Shown here in pieces: positions 10,949 to 16,101 of a DNA stretch of 45,933 bases; positions within the stretch are counted from its first letter, which is position 1; each line of letters opens with the position of its first letter. The DNA comes from Cytophagaceae bacterium (GTDB taxonomy: Bacteria > Bacteroidota > Bacteroidia > Cytophagales > Cytophagaceae), in contig JALONM010000074.1 in assembly GCA_025454925.1 (NCBI GenBank), positions 1-45,933 on the forward strand, written 5' to 3'. Both the position numbers and the translations under genes were made by a program. Under the pieces are notes generated by a model. That model saw only the letters and a program-made list of their open reading frames with translations. It did no database searches and was not told the origin of the DNA.

Positions 10949-12301
10949 AAAACCATTTTTTACATAATTATTACATTGATTTTTCTTCCTCTTTGTGCGC
11001 AGGAAATAAAATTCTTACCTATTCCAAATGAAATAAGGTTGCATGAAAAAATTGTAATAAGCCTCGAAATACCCAAAAAGTTTAAAAGAGAATATAAACT
11101 ACTCCAGCAATACAGGTTCCCTGACATCCCTGACCTTATAAAGGAGAATACAGACTTTATAGAATCCGATCAATTCTACGTTATTAGTCAATATTACAGA
11201 GCCTTAGAGCCTGGGAATTATACCTTAAGTGTGTTTCGTATCCCCCTTAAAAGCCAGGAATTGGTTTTTAACGAAAAGATAGTCCGGGTGAAATCAGGAA
11301 AACTGAACATTCGACCAACACCTAAGTCTTTAGAATTGCAGCTGGCGGCACCCGACCTTCAGTTTAAAATCCAGGCAAGCCAACAACAGGTGCTGCAAGG
11401 TCAGGCCTTGCAGATACAAGCCGCATTGTGGATACCTTACGAAAACACCAAAGAATTTTCAGTAATAAAAATAAACCAGCAAAAAGTAGCGCTGCTTCAG
11501 AAAATCAAATCACAACCTTGCCTAGTGGCGGAATCCGCGGCAGAGGACCTTCAAGTTGATTCTCTTAAACTCAATGGGCAATCTTACCGGCGTTGGACAC
11601 TTCTTAATTTGGTGGTTTTCCCTCTGGACAGTAATCGCTTTTCAATCCCCTCCTTTCCTTTCGAAATAGTCTGCTATGAAGCCGCCAAAACGGAAACAGG
11701 CATCGAACGAAAAGCAATTCGACGTGTGTATGAAGCCAATGGCAGCACCATCAAAATCAACAAAAACACACATGGCTTGGCCGTGGGATCGTTTATTCTT
11801 CAAGAAAACCTTAGCACCACAAAACTTAAAACCGGAAAAAGTTTCGCATTGACCCTGACATTCCAAGGCGAAGGGAATTTCATATCATTGCCGGCACCCA
11901 CCCTTTCTGGCAGCGAGATTCTAGACATTTATCCTCCATCCGTATCGAATGGTTGGCAACAAAACGGTTCTACTCTGAAGGGCTATAAACGCTTTACCTA
12001 CCAGATAACTCCAAAAGAACCGGGGGAATACAAGGGGCAAGACTTTTTTACTTTGGTTTATTTCAATCAAAAGACTCGCTCTATTGACACCTTGAGTCCG
12101 AAGATAGTATTTAAAATAAAAGGGGAAAGCCTAAAAAACACGTATATTTCGACCAATCATCCGGATGATTTTTATAGTGGCGTTCACTCTGCATCCAATG
12201 CGCTTGAACCCTTGAAAAAAAAGGATCCCTTGGCCATTTACGCCAACATTCTGATCTTGTTGATGTTGTTAATTAGTGCAGTGATCGTAATAAAAAAATG
12301 A
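10946..12301 (+). CDS. BatD-like membrane-anchored Ig-fold protein
   Basis: 451 residues from a TTG start. A signal peptide ([19 protein letters not shown]) precedes several beta-sandwich segments and one C-terminal transmembrane helix (about 431-448, [15 protein letters not shown]) with a short basic tail. This matches the plan of BatD-type proteins of the Bacteroidota aerotolerance (Bat) clusters and related anchored proteins: periplasmic, inner-membrane bound, binding partners unknown. The family assignment rests on architecture and segments such as [22 protein letters not shown]. No BatA/B/C/E genes are next to it, so it is an orphan copy. Its stop TGA overlaps the ATG of aroC (ATGA, 4 bp), implying translational coupling with chorismate synthesis, although no functional link is obvious. 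Confidence 0.7.
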
Positions 12302-13386
12302 GTAGTAGTTTTGGTAAACTTTTCCGAATCACCACGTTCGGAGAATCACATGGTAAGGCTGTAGGGCTTATTTTGGAAGGTTGTCCGGCAGGCTTGGAAA
12401 TTGATGAAGATTTCATTCAATACGAATTGGATCGCCGCAAACCAGGTCAATCCAAGATAACCACACAACGGAAAGAAGAAGACAAAATGCAAATTCTTTC
12501 CGGAGTATTTGAAGGTAAAGCTACAGGAACTCCCCTGGCCATGATGGTTTGGAACGAAGACCAACGCAGCAAAGACTATTCGCATATTGCCGACAAATTC
12601 CGCCCCTCGCATGCAGATTTTACCTATCATGTAAAATATGGACTTCGCGATTATCGAGGAGGAGGAAGAAGCTCTGCCAGGGAAACCATTGCCCGGGTGG
12701 CTGCGGGAGCTGTGGCCAAGCTATTCTTAAAAAAACTAGGCATTACCGTTCAAAGTTATGTAAGTCAGGTGGGTCCTATGAAACTGGGTAAAAGCTACCA
12801 GGATCTCGATTTATCTACGATTGATGATAACATCCTGCGCTGCCCAGATCAATCCATGGCTGCAACGATGATCGAATTCATCGACCAGATTCGCAAAGAC
12901 CAGGATACCGTTGGTGGAATCATTTCATGTGTCATAAAGGGATGTCCGGCAGGACTTGGTGAGCCCGTTTTTGATAAATTGCATGCAGAACTCGGCAAAG
13001 CCATGCTTAGCATAAATGCTGTGAAAGGGTTTGAATACGGAAGTGGTTTCGAAGGAATTGCCTTGAGAGGATCCGAGCATAACGACGAATTTTTTGTCGA
13101 AAATGGTTCCGTTAAAACCAAAACCAACCATTCCGGTGGCGTCCAGGGAGGCATCAGTAACGGACAGGATATCTTTTTTAACGTCGCTTTCAAACCCGTG
13201 GCCACAATTATGAAGGACCAGGCCAGCATTAATGAAAGTGGCGATACAGTAACCGTCAGTGGCAAAGGTCGCCATGACCCTTGTGTTGTGCCTCGTGCGG
13301 TGCCTATCGTTGATGCCATGGCAGCCTTGGTAGTAGCTGACTTTCTGCTGCGCAACAAGTCCATACGCCTCGATTCTTTAATATAG
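12298..13386 (+). CDS. aroC: Chorismate synthase
   Basis: 362 residues, full length. It converts 5-enolpyruvylshikimate-3-phosphate to chorismate using reduced FMN, the last shikimate step and the common precursor of Phe, Tyr and Trp. Family blocks are intact: N-terminal [10 protein letters not shown] (about 14-23), RRKPGQS (46-52), the basic [16 protein letters not shown] (about 114-129), SHGGV-type loop ([13 protein letters not shown], about 276-288) and the C-terminal [18 protein letters not shown] block. Start ATG overlaps the upstream stop. Together with pheA and the aminotransferase 0.7 kb downstream it makes an aromatic amino acid neighbourhood, though the latter pair has its own promoter. 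Confidence 0.97.
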
Positions 13387-13698: not shown

Positions 13699-13848
13699 AT
13701 GGAACTTCTGAGAAACTTTTTTAACGACGGCCAAAGCTCTTATCTTTCCTTTACTTTGTTCATGCTGGTCTTTATTGTGTTTATACTGGGCACTGTATCA
13801 CTCATGGATTTCATGATTAGCAAGTTTTTTAACAGACAGCAGGAATAA
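13699..13848 (+). CDS. Small single-pass membrane protein (49 aa), hypothetical
   Basis: From ATG 13699 the frame gives MELLRNFFNDGQSSYLSFTL and a strongly hydrophobic helix (FMLVFIVFILGTVSLMDFMI, about residues 20-39), ending in a basic-polar tail KFFNRQQE. The frame is open further upstream to 13633, but that extension has no hydrophobic or family features. A hairpin with a short T-run starts at its TAA stop, which supports it as a real short transcript. No ribosome binding site or family was recognised. Confidence 0.5.
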   Translation: MELLRNFFNDGQSSYLSFTLFMLVFIVFILGTVSLMDFMISKFFNRQQE

Positions 13849-13871
13849 GGCCTGGATTTGGGGCCTCTTTT
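13848..13871 (+). terminator. Weak terminator after the small membrane protein
   Basis: AGGCC (13848-13852) pairs with GGCCT (13862-13866), followed by CTTTT. Short stem, but placed exactly at the stop codon of the 49-aa frame and upstream of the pheA promoter. Confidence 0.45.
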
Positions 13872-13882
13872 AGAGATAATAA

Positions 13883-13912
13883 TTGCTTATTCAGTGTAAT
13901 ATTCTATATTTG
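13883..13912 (+). promoter_or_regulatory. pheA operon promoter (TTG-N19-TATATTTG)
   Basis: A perfect Bacteroidota -7 box TATATTTG (13905-13912, consensus TAnnTTTG) with TTG at 13883-13885, 19 bases upstream. Expected transcription start is about 13916-13920, i.e. at or next to the ATG of the leader peptide. Confidence 0.8.
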
Positions 13913-13916
13913 CGTT

Positions 13917-13970
13917 ATGTTTTCGGCAATTCATCCATACTTTTTCTTTTATCATGGCAGCGCCAGGTAG
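13917..13970 (+). CDS. Phe/Tyr-rich leader peptide of the pheA attenuator
   Basis: 17 codons, MFSAIHPYFFFYHGSAR and TAG. Codons 8-12 read Tyr-Phe-Phe-Phe-Tyr (13938-13952), with another Phe at codon 2, an enrichment typical of leader peptides that sense charged tRNA-Phe (and perhaps tRNA-Tyr). The stop codon (13968-13970) overlaps the first strand of the antiterminator. Ribosome stalling on the Phe/Tyr run would leave 13969-13974 free to pair with 13996-14001; completion of the peptide would cover it and let the terminator form. The ATG is nearly at the predicted transcript start, so translation would be almost leaderless. Confidence 0.8.
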   Translation: MFSAIHPYFFFYHGSAR

Positions 13971-14019
13971 GGACTTAGTATGTAAATAAGTGACGGTCCC
14001 TGGTAGGGACTTTTTTTTT
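13963..14019 (+). promoter_or_regulatory. Antiterminator/terminator switch of the pheA operon
   Basis: The 11-base sequence GGTAGGGACTT occurs twice (13966-13976 and 14002-14012). Between them GGTCCCTGG (13995-14003) can pair with either copy: AGGGAC 13969-13974 (antiterminator, extendable with CCA at 13963-13965 across a bulge) or AGGGAC 14005-14010 (terminator). Mutually exclusive pairing follows directly from the sequence. Confidence 0.78.
13995..14019 (+). terminator. pheA leader terminator
   Basis: Stem GTCCCT (13996-14001) with AGGGAC (14005-14010), 3-nt loop, one extra G-U pair, followed at once by nine T (14011-14019). It lies 25 bases before the pheA ATG, so termination here would silence the operon. 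Confidence 0.8.
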
Positions 14020-14044
14020 GCCAGAAAATATAGAATATCACCTT

Positions 14045-14887
14045 ATGAAAGTAGCCATACAAGGAGGTCCAGCCTCGTTTCACCATATTGCCGCCAATCT
14101 GTTCTTCCAGCAAGAACCAGCATTACTGTGTTGCAATTCTTTCAAAGAACTATGTGAATCATTGAAGGATGGACAAGTGGATTATGCCGCCATGGCAATT
14201 GAAAATTCCATCGCTGGCAGCATTCTGAATAACTATCACTTACTATTGCAATACGATTTAAAGATTATCGGGGAAATACAATTGCGCATCGAACAAAACC
14301 TGATGGCTTTGCCTGGTACGCAGTTGCAGGATGTAAAAATTGTGCGATCGCACTATATGGCCTTGGCCCAATGCGATGAATTCTTTTCTCAGCATTCCTT
14401 TACCCTCGAAGAATATCATGACACCGCGGATAGCGCGCGCGATTTAAAAAGAGATTGCGAATCGCGCAACAAGGTAATTGCCGCAGTAGCCAGCAGAAAA
14501 GCAGCCTCCCTATATGAATTGGAGATTCTAGCAGAAAGCATTGAAACCGTGAAAGAAAACTATACCCGTTTCTTTATCCTTTCCAACGACAAAAAAATCA
14601 AAATAGAAAACTCCAATAAAGCCACCTTATGCTTTAATCTTCCCAATAAAGTGGGAGCCCTGGCTGAGGTGTTGGCCATCATTGTTGAAAATAAAATTAA
14701 CCTTACTAAAATTCAGTCACTGCCACTGTTGGGCAAGCCCAATCAATACACATTCTATGTTGATTGTGAGTGGAATGACTACGAAGACTTTAAAAGAAGC
14801 ATTCGCATCAACTCAATTGTAGAAAATCTTAAAATCCTTGGTGAATACAAGAAAGGAGAAATGATTCATGATTATTCCAGCCGCTAA
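14045..14887 (+). CDS. pheA: Prephenate dehydratase with ACT domain
   Basis: 280 residues. It decarboxylates and dehydrates prephenate to phenylpyruvate. The catalytic domain covers about 1-180 with the hallmark TRF triplet at Thr174-Arg175-Phe176 (ENYTRFFIL) and the GxxxSFxH-type start (IQGGPASFHH). A C-terminal ACT domain (about 195-275; NKVGALAEVLAI, LTKIQSLPLLG) is the usual Phe-binding feedback site; the ESRP-like motif reads QSLP, so feedback strength may differ. No chorismate mutase domain is fused. I chose ATG 14045: a longer frame begins at a TTG inside the terminator T-run and cannot be translated sensibly. It overlaps the downstream aminotransferase by 20 bases and is controlled by the leader attenuator just upstream. 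Confidence 0.95.
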   Translation: MKVAIQGGPASFHHIAANLFFQQEPALLCCNSFKELCESLKDGQVDYAAMAIENSIAGSILNNYHLLLQYDLKIIGEIQLRIEQNLMALPGTQLQDVKIVRSHYMALAQCDEFFSQHSFTLEEYHDTADSARDLKRDCESRNKVIAAVASRKAASLYELEILAESIETVKENYTRFFILSNDKKIKIENSNKATLCFNLPNKVGALAEVLAIIVENKINLTKIQSLPLLGKPNQYTFYVDCEWNDYEDFKRSIRINSIVENLKILGEYKKGEMIHDYSSR

Positions 14888-16046
14888 CAGACTTCAAAAT
14901 GTTAAAGAATATTATTTCGTTAAGAAGCTAGAAGAAATTGCGCGTCTCAATAAAGAAGGTAAAAATGTTATCAGCTTTGGAATTGGGAGTCCGGATTTAG
15001 CTCCATCCGCTGCTACGCTTAAAGCACTCAGCGAAACTGCCTCCATGCCTCATGTGCACGGATATCAGCCGTACCGTGGTATTCCTGAATTACGCGAAGC
15101 CATTGCCCGTTGGTACAGTCAAACCTATGATGTTAGCCTAAATCCTGCCTCTGAAGTTCTGCCGTTGATGGGATCCAAAGAAGGGATTTTGCATTTGTCA
15201 ATGGCATTTCTGAATCCTGGCGAAAAAGCATTGGTGCCTAATCCTGGATATCCGACCTATACCTCGCTTACTACATTAATAGGAGCCCAGGTGCAGCATT
15301 ACGATCTTACCGACGAACACCATTGGTACCCTGACTTTGAAAAGCTGGCCGATAGCGATTTACAAGGAGTGAAACTTATGTGGGTAAACTACCCTCACAT
15401 GCCTACGGGCACGCCTGCACGTAAAGATGTCTTCGAAAAGTTAGTCCGGTTTGCACACGACAAAAAAATATTAGTTTGTCATGACAATCCGTATAGTTTA
15501 GTGCTGCAACAAGCCAAGCCTCTTAGCTTGTTATCGATAGATGGCGCAAAAGAAGTAGCCGTGGAATTAAACTCCATGAGTAAGTCGCATAACATGGCAG
15601 GCTGGAGAATTGGCATGCTGCTGGGCGAAGCTTCGTACTTAAACCTCGCCCTTACGGTAAAAAGTAATATCGATTCCGGTATGTTCCATGGCTTGCAAAA
15701 AGCAGCCATTGAGGCATTTCAAAATGGCGAGCCATGGCACAACGAACGCAATGACATTTACCGCCGCAGACGGGAATGGGTGTATAAAATTCTTGATCTC
15801 CTCGATTTTGAATATTCACGCGAACAAGTCGGTATGTTTGTTTGGGCAAAACCTAAAAAACAGATAGGAGATATTCCATCGTTGGTGGATAAAATATTAT
15901 ATACCACGTATGTTTTCTTCACACCTGGAGAAATATTCGGCTCCAATGGAGCTCAGTTTATGAGAGCCTCCTTGTGTGTGCCGGAAGAAAAAATGGAAGA
16001 GGCCTACCATCGATTAGTGAACGCTAAAAAAGAAGGCCTGATCTAA
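14868..16046 (+). CDS. PLP-dependent class I/II aminotransferase (aromatic/prephenate type)
   Basis: 392 residues, fold-type I aminotransferase. The PLP-binding lysine is Lys239 in NSMSKSHNMAGWRIG; other family blocks are GIGSPDLAP (N-terminal), NPGYPTY, the YPHMPTG substrate/PLP loop and the C-terminal MRASLCVPEE (carboxylate-binding Arg). An AAGGAG-type ribosome binding site at about 14852-14858 fits the ATG at 14868. It overlaps pheA by 20 bases, so it most likely supplies the transamination for Phe (phenylpyruvate) and perhaps Tyr or prephenate; the exact substrate cannot be read from sequence. It resembles the aspC-like gene that accompanies pheA in other Bacteroidota. A terminator follows 26 bases later. 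Confidence 0.9.
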   Translation: MIIPAANRLQNVKEYYFVKKLEEIARLNKEGKNVISFGIGSPDLAPSAATLKALSETASMPHVHGYQPYRGIPELREAIARWYSQTYDVSLNPASEVLPLMGSKEGILHLSMAFLNPGEKALVPNPGYPTYTSLTTLIGAQVQHYDLTDEHHWYPDFEKLADSDLQGVKLMWVNYPHMPTGTPARKDVFEKLVRFAHDKKILVCHDNPYSLVLQQAKPLSLLSIDGAKEVAVELNSMSKSHNMAGWRIGMLLGEASYLNLALTVKSNIDSGMFHGLQKAAIEAFQNGEPWHNERNDIYRRRREWVYKILDLLDFEYSREQVGMFVWAKPKKQIGDIPSLVDKILYTTYVFFTPGEIFGSNGAQFMRASLCVPEEKMEEAYHRLVNAKKEGLI

Positions 16047-16072: not shown

Positions 16073-16101
16073 AAGCCACCTATTTCTTATGGGTGGCTTT
16101 T
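16073..16101 (+). terminator. Terminator of the pheA-aminotransferase operon
   Basis: Perfect 8-bp stem AAGCCACC (16073-16080) with GGTGGCTT (16092-16099), 11-nt loop, followed by TTTTCCTTT. Placed 26 bases after the aminotransferase stop. Confidence 0.75.

Follow-up and report, generated by a model that had tools for sequence, protein, structure and literature searches.

The pheA locus and its leader

The window, meaning the whole 45,933-base stretch of DNA analysed here, carries a short operon in which pheA is followed by an aminotransferase gene (Table 1). Between this operon and the upstream aroC lies a small ORF, for which no Pfam match above the cut-off was obtained and which has a terminator-like hairpin of its own, located by eye at about 13848-13871. 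ORFs resembling it by eye are present upstream of pheA in the loci L003, L004, L006, L007 and L009-L012. The tyrA gene of the window's genome is on another contig, with no Phe/Tyr leader in the 1500 bases upstream of it.

The preliminary description of this DNA had placed in front of pheA a Phe/Tyr leader peptide, a stop codon overlapping one strand of an antiterminator, a terminator stem and a run of nine T, and the sequence contains each of these elements where it had put them. Strands 2 and 4 are identical, and strand 3 can pair with either, with hairpin energies of -9.9 kcal/mol for 2:3 and -9.0 kcal/mol for 3:4. The T run ends 25 nt before the pheA ATG (14045). Folds calculated in the absence of a ribosome add a further element to that description, a 1:2 structure whose inner helices hide strand 2.

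Table 1. Features of the pheA locus, in positions of the 45,933-base window
Feature	Position	Strand	Description	Basis
aroC	12298-13386		upstream of pheA	
49-codon ORF	13699-13848	+	between aroC and pheA; small, hydrophobic, probably a membrane protein	
Predicted Bacteroidota sigma-A promoter	13882-13912	+	ATTG 13882-13885, 19 nt, TATATTTG 13905-13912	consensus match
Leader ORF	13917-13970	+	MFSAIHPYFFFYHGSAR, 17 sense codons; ATG 13917, TAG stop 13968-13970	sequence
Control codons	13938-13952	+	Tyr-Phe-Phe-Phe-Tyr (TAC TTT TTC TTT TAT), codons 8-12	sequence; antiterminator predicted with the A site there
Ribosome-free 1:2 structure	13936-13982	+	CATACT 13936-13941 / AGTATG 13977-13982; strand 2 hidden by inner helices	minimum-free-energy folds
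Strand 2	13969-13974	+	AGGGAC, starting inside the TAG stop; antiterminator with strand 3	sequence and folds
Strand 3	13996-14001	+	GTCCCT, common to antiterminator and terminator	sequence and folds
Intrinsic terminator	14005-14019	+	strand 4 AGGGAC 14005-14010, then T9 14011-14019	sequence and folds
pheA	14045-14887	+	prephenate dehydratase with ACT-like end	PF00800, E 1.6e-54; PF01842 match below the curated cut-off
Class I/II aminotransferase	14868-16046	+	second operon gene, overlaps pheA	PF00155, E 3.3e-57
Probable intrinsic terminator	about 16073-16101	+	hairpin with T, closing the pheA-aminotransferase operon	by eye

Promoter and predicted leaderless start

Promoters of Bacteroidota carry a TTG element at -33, and a predicted promoter of this type precedes the leader. 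Its downstream box, TATATTTG, matches the -7 consensus TAnnTTTG given for Bacteroidetes in the available text of PMC9723704. The last base of the box is only 5 positions before the leader ATG, a spacing that predicts transcription starting on the leader AUG or no more than a few bases from it, and hence a leaderless or nearly leaderless mRNA. The four leaders of genus g7, which belong to the window's family, have a TAnnTTTG box at a distance of 6 from the ATG. The box lies 9 to 45 positions from the ATG in 12 leaders of other families, and the exact motif is absent from the 60 bases before the ATG in the remaining 22 of the 39 leaders described below. Because of these longer distances and missing boxes, the leaderless start is predicted to be a trait of the window's family, and not of the whole leader set.

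Recurrence of the leader upstream of pheA

The arrangement was searched for with a detector that takes an ORF of 7-45 codons starting with ATG, with four or more Phe/Tyr among 7 codons, and that additionally asks for a terminator-like hairpin (score at least 22, at least 6 T in 9) no more than 110 nt from the end of the ORF. On both strands of the window, the leader before pheA is the only match, with 5 Phe/Tyr in 7 codons and a terminator score of 24.7. The energy of the leader fold is unremarkable by itself (z -1.51, with 17 of 200 shuffles folding as well), and the signal is instead the combination of elements, together with their recurrence in relatives.

A Phe/Tyr leader with its terminator was detected in 39 of 109 selected regions upstream of pheA, against none of their 109 reverse complements and none of 1090 shuffles. 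These regions were taken in four parts: the best 30 loci and 16 more from 108 genomes matching the window's pheA (L017 being dropped because its pheA starts on another contig); 27 new loci plus four, excluding G637, G549, G159 and G547; 30 loci that were the best among 340 matching genomes, every one of them from another class of the phylum; and three additional loci. As all were chosen by similarity or score, the group fractions should not be read as prevalences: the leader was found in 5/18 regions of the window's own family (two genera, the window and all four g7 genomes), 12/27 of other families of the same order, 21/31 of other orders of the class, 0/30 of other classes, and in one of the three additional loci outside those groups. 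The leader ORF of L019 was set by hand before the fold test described below, the automatically picked one being wrong. The number of 39 may be an undercount, with weaker cases such as L089 (3 Phe/Tyr in 7) missed by the thresholds. The preliminary description had held that a lack of conserved Phe/Tyr codons, or of both stems, in relatives would speak against the attenuator; the relatives do not present this picture, and the codons return upstream of pheA in many families of the class, although in only 5 of 18 regions of the window's own family. The leaders constitute a set, so far unnamed, that recurs across many families of Bacteroidia.

In L023 and L024, from genus g71, a strong GC-rich terminator is found about 50 bases before pheA. 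The ORF ahead of it is poor in Phe codons and under the detector threshold, and is perhaps a decayed or a different leader.

These results bear on whether the hairpin could simply terminate an upstream transcript constitutively, or mark the end of a small RNA, with an ORF before it by chance. Short ORFs are common, and an Rfam search extended to E 10 gave four sub-threshold matches to small RNAs, the best being STnc220 with 21.8 bits against a gathering threshold of 60. Still, when the window's upstream region was shuffled 3000 times with its dinucleotides preserved, only one shuffle combined 5 or more Phe/Tyr in 7 codons with a terminator score of 24 or higher, the arrangement recurs before pheA in many families, and the small ORF upstream already has its own terminator-like hairpin. 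We give this explanation almost no credence.

A predicted ribosome-dependent switch

The behaviour of the leader was modelled by folding, for each position of the ribosome, the RNA that lies between the front edge of the ribosome and strand 4, strand 4 itself excluded, and reading out the probability that strand 3 pairs upstream (sequestration). The ribosome footprint is assumed; in the window its edge was set 14 nt from the first base of the P-site codon, and edges of 11 and 16 gave a similar result. In the window, placing Tyr8, Phe9, Phe10, Phe11 and Tyr12 in the A site gives a predicted sequestration of 0.97, 1.00, 0.99, 0.77 and 0.79, respectively, and from Ala16 to the stop it is 0.11-0.12. 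None of 20 shuffles of the window's spacer reached its own contrast. In these folds, made before strand 4 exists, a stalled ribosome exposes 13969-13974 to pair with 13996-14001, which lends in silico support to the pairing that the preliminary description had proposed as the release of the terminator.

Stalls at Ala4-Pro7 or at His13/Gly14 are also predicted to antiterminate (0.96-1.00). What the fold test locates is the downstream edge of the control region, and it does not tell where that region begins. In folds that include strand 4, the terminator becomes the minimum-free-energy structure for stalls with Tyr8, Phe9 or His13 in the A site, and of the four stalled positions tested Tyr12 alone keeps the antiterminator. 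According to the model, the antiterminator of the window must then win by timing, forming before strand 4 emerges. This is the order of events in textbook attenuators, in which the antiterminator forms before the terminator strand is out.

A similar pattern is predicted for the set on average. Over the 39 leaders, mean sequestration amounts to 0.80 for a ribosome at Phe/Tyr codons, 0.22 for one at the stop and 0.72 without a ribosome. The contrast between the last Phe/Tyr codon and the stop is 0.55, compared to 0.08 with shuffled spacers, for which the largest of 20 set means is 0.126. Taken one by one, 22 of the 39 leaders, including that of the window, were matched by no shuffle of 20, and 38 by at most 4 of 20. 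Sequestration falls below half between one and four codons after the last Phe/Tyr codon in 38/39 leaders, the exception being L033. The logic of pheL and trpL, which had been suggested for this leader from the start, thus finds in silico support in a predicted switch located just behind the Phe/Tyr codons.

A different possibility is TnaC-like arrest, in which the nascent peptide itself halts the ribosome on sensing a small molecule and codon starvation plays no part. The position of the predicted switch, just behind the codon run in those 38 leaders, argues against it. So do the peptides themselves: outside the aromatic run they differ between families, as judged by eye, and several close with Ser-Arg-Asp or Ser-Arg-Gly, a stretch whose codons make up RNA strand 2. 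Peptide arrest is therefore a very improbable explanation.

Leaders without a ribosome deserve separate mention. Ribosome-free sequestration exceeds 0.5 in 35/39 leaders, which suggests, within the fold model, that the untranslated transcript reads through in most of them; in the textbook trp leader, the untranslated transcript does not read through. The window is among the four exceptions, with the 1:2 fold present but strand 3 still sequestered at 0.39.

The pairing geometry was also assessed by exchanging spacers between unrelated leaders. Own spacers gave a strand 3 sequestration of 0.77 and swapped ones 0.60 over 1318 pairs, with the own value above the median swap in 31/38 leaders (L033 left out); in the case of the window, 21 of 37 swaps did as well as its own spacer or better. 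Swapped spacers perform nearly as well because many leaders share a GTCCC/GGGAC core. The fold model strongly supports the geometry of the leader, and independent base-pair covariation does not follow from the swap test. Within the family, the window and the four g7 genomes were aligned; they comprise two lineages with an identical GTCCC/GGGAC core.

Proposed mechanism

We read the element as very probably a ribosome-mediated attenuator that controls transcription of the operon of pheA and the aminotransferase gene. This reading is based on the leader sequence, which has no second of its kind in the window, on the return of the same design in relatives and on the pairing switch that the folds predict. 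We infer a start of transcription, translation of the leader, termination and a response to Phe and Tyr that would proceed as follows. RNA polymerase would start at or just before the leader AUG. With ample charged tRNA-Phe and tRNA-Tyr, translation would proceed to the UAG at 13968 and the ribosome would cover strand 2, leaving strand 3 to pair with strand 4, and transcription would end in the T run at 14011-14019. When either tRNA is short, the ribosome would stall in codons 8-12 and strand 2 would emerge, taking strand 3 before strand 4 is made, so that no terminator forms and pheA is transcribed. On a leader with no ribosome, the 1:2 structure would hide strand 2 and partly favour termination.

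Phenylalanine and tyrosine coding

With L033 set aside, each of the 38 leaders tallied contains Phe as well as Tyr, even though the detector had no such requirement. Their 809 residues include 165 F, 135 Y and 7 W. The genes downstream of pheA were read in 12 leader-bearing loci. In eight of them (L160-L162 and L164-L168), pheA and an aminotransferase are followed by TyrA-like and DAHP-synthase-like ORFs in either order, and in three (L157-L159) pheA is followed by DAHP-synthase-like, EPSP-synthase-like and chorismate-synthase-like ORFs. The remaining locus, L163 from genus g7, has pheA and then an aminotransferase alone, and the operon of the window, like that of g7, is limited to these two genes. 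BLAST matched the aminotransferase in nine loci and TyrA in four (L161, L162, L164, L167). Pfam, which was also run on the L163 aminotransferase, confirms the assignments in L164 and L157; the other downstream assignments are by N-terminal resemblance, judged by eye.

As every tallied leader contains both residues and the operons of relatives often include tyrA-like and DAHP-synthase-like genes, sensing of Tyr besides Phe is plausible from the sequences. In the window's own species it is uncertain, since tyrA lies outside the operon and the 1500 bases before it contain no such leader. Joint sensing fits the longer operon well and may have been passed on to the short one.

In a Phe-only attenuator, the Tyr codons would be mere passengers and Tyr starvation would have no effect on pheA. 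In its favour, the leader of E. coli pheL reads only Phe, and the operon here has just two genes, with tyrA located elsewhere and preceded by no leader in 1500 bases. Against this, Tyr makes up 135 of the 300 Phe and Tyr residues and is present in all 38 leaders, and the run in the window starts and ends with Tyr, with a stall at either one predicted to antiterminate. A Phe-only reading is for these reasons unlikely.

Tandem leaders

In genus g22, which belongs to the same order as the window, at least one Phe/Tyr leader is present in all 30 loci read, out of 35 matching genomes among 41 searched. Two leaders in series, each with its own terminator, were found in 12 of the 30 (L126-L128, L131, L134, L136, L138, L147, L148 and L151-L153), or in 15 at relaxed thresholds. 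Both are predicted to switch: in the fold test, sequestration drops from 0.78 to 0.21 in the distal leaders and from 0.70 to 0.18 in the proximal ones (12 each). Two leaders before pheA were also found in L101, from the same genus, and in L111, from another family. If confirmed, two attenuators in series would multiply their termination probabilities and sharpen the response, and a tandem reading the same signal within one genus would constitute a natural experiment on response steepness.

Such pairs resemble mgtCBR from Salmonella in having two leader ORFs in one leader (PMC3641672). According to the available text, mgtCBR reads two different signals, ATP and proline, whereas both members of the g22 pairs are rich in Phe/Tyr. 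In the available text of the literature searched on tandem attenuators, no report of a same-signal pair was found.

Other loci examined

Besides pheA, several loci of the window's genome were inspected for leaders. No leader of the expected kind was found in the 1500 bases upstream of the matched domain for hisG, tyrA, pheS and one DAHP synthase. About 1 kb upstream of a second DAHP synthase (L170) there is a weak ORF with a TTG start that encodes Phe-Phe-Phe and lies beside a terminator-like hairpin. For the homoserine dehydrogenase (L124), the stretch begins inside a long reading frame and so excludes the true upstream region. Before trpE (L121, 640-820) there is a leader-like ORF, MNTTSNVQVWRWQMN, which ends in VWRWQMN and is accompanied by a strong terminator with nine T. 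The fold test gave no switch for it, staying flat at 59-61% throughout, the stop included, and it is not put forward as an attenuator. The genome has no match to RF01692, the Trp leader family discussed below.

Outside Bacteroidota, the Lentisphaeria MAG contig L033 holds a pheA relative preceded by a leader-like ORF ending in FEYGYAYVFAF and by a terminator. This candidate passed the scan and was rejected as a switch, as 16 of 20 shuffles did as well in the fold test.

Implications

The broader proposal, which we consider evenly poised between holding and failing, is that these unnamed, Bacteroidia-wide attenuators read Phe and Tyr jointly on behalf of the Phe/Tyr branch, that they act on a leaderless mRNA with no ribosome-binding leader in the window's family, and that they are doubled in series in one genus. 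Such a design predicts joint control of the aromatic branch by the supply of Phe and Tyr in Bacteroidia. Ribosome-mediated attenuation requires a ribosome close behind RNA polymerase on the leader and, to our knowledge, Bacteroidia largely lack Shine-Dalgarno sequences. A recurrent and precisely spaced attenuator across the class would thus imply close coupling of transcription and translation, and would be a ready reporter for it. For flavobacteria, Shine-Dalgarno sequences are described as largely dispensed with in the available text of PMC9723704. Similarly, Bacteroidota are not among the phyla classed with runaway transcription in the accessible part of PMC13323073, an omission that agrees with attenuation working there.

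Comparison with known systems

One close relative of this design is the pheL attenuator of Enterobacteria, represented in Rfam as Phe_leader, which shares with the window a Phe-rich leader ORF in front of pheA, a stop near the antiterminator and a terminator before the gene. The window differs from it in the mixture of Tyr with Phe, the predicted leaderless start, the pheA-aminotransferase operon and the lack of an Rfam match. At the gathering threshold, Rfam gave no matches in the whole window, and on 20 related loci it gave one tRNA and no leader.

The preliminary description knew of no family member described in Bacteroidota, and this point has to be corrected. RF01692 (Bacteroid-trp) is listed for Bacteroidetes (PMC2864571) and described as a Trp leader (PMC6414381) in the portions available. 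It is, like the element in the window, a leader attenuator in Bacteroidota, but with Trp codons and before the trp operon. Within the window's family, RF01692 scores over the cut-off in five genomes and below it in a sixth. No match was obtained in the window, nor, with filters that lose weak matches, in its genome, G000. The six genomes matching RF01692 (G007, G010, G012, G013, G014 and G016, one of them below the cut-off) are without a pheA leader, and those with a pheA leader (G000, G006, G011, G015 and G018) have no RF01692 match; in such small numbers, this exclusivity may follow ancestry.

From the same phylum, and before the same gene, is an element from the Flavobacterium psychrophilum transcriptome (2021), which is conserved 5' of pheA in Flavobacteriaceae and has no Rfam hit (PMC9723704). 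The available text gives its scope as the family Flavobacteriaceae and mentions clues for leader-peptide attenuation before amino-acid operons there, without tying the pheA element itself to attenuation. In a survey of five genomes (PMC6429828), the accessible part describes two shikimate-linked uORFs that, like the leader in the window, contain both Phe and Tyr beside shikimate genes, and sORFs reminiscent of leader peptides are reported for Bacteroides thetaiotaomicron in the available text of PMC7366714. The trpL of Sinorhizobium meliloti provides a precedent for the start of transcription, as its transcript is described, in the portion available, as beginning with the ATG of the attenuator leader ORF; it is leaderless as predicted for the window, but belongs to Alphaproteobacteria and reads Trp.

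A study by Lopatovskaya from 2010 on attenuation across bacteria, cited in PMC4833913, may include cases from Bacteroidetes. The principle of attenuation is already in print for the phylum, and so, probably, is the pheA case in Flavobacteriaceae. For the class-wide extent, the consistent coding of Phe together with Tyr, the predicted leaderless start in the window's family and the tandem form, no report was found in the available text of the open-access literature searched, and it is these four features that the present analysis adds to the known systems.
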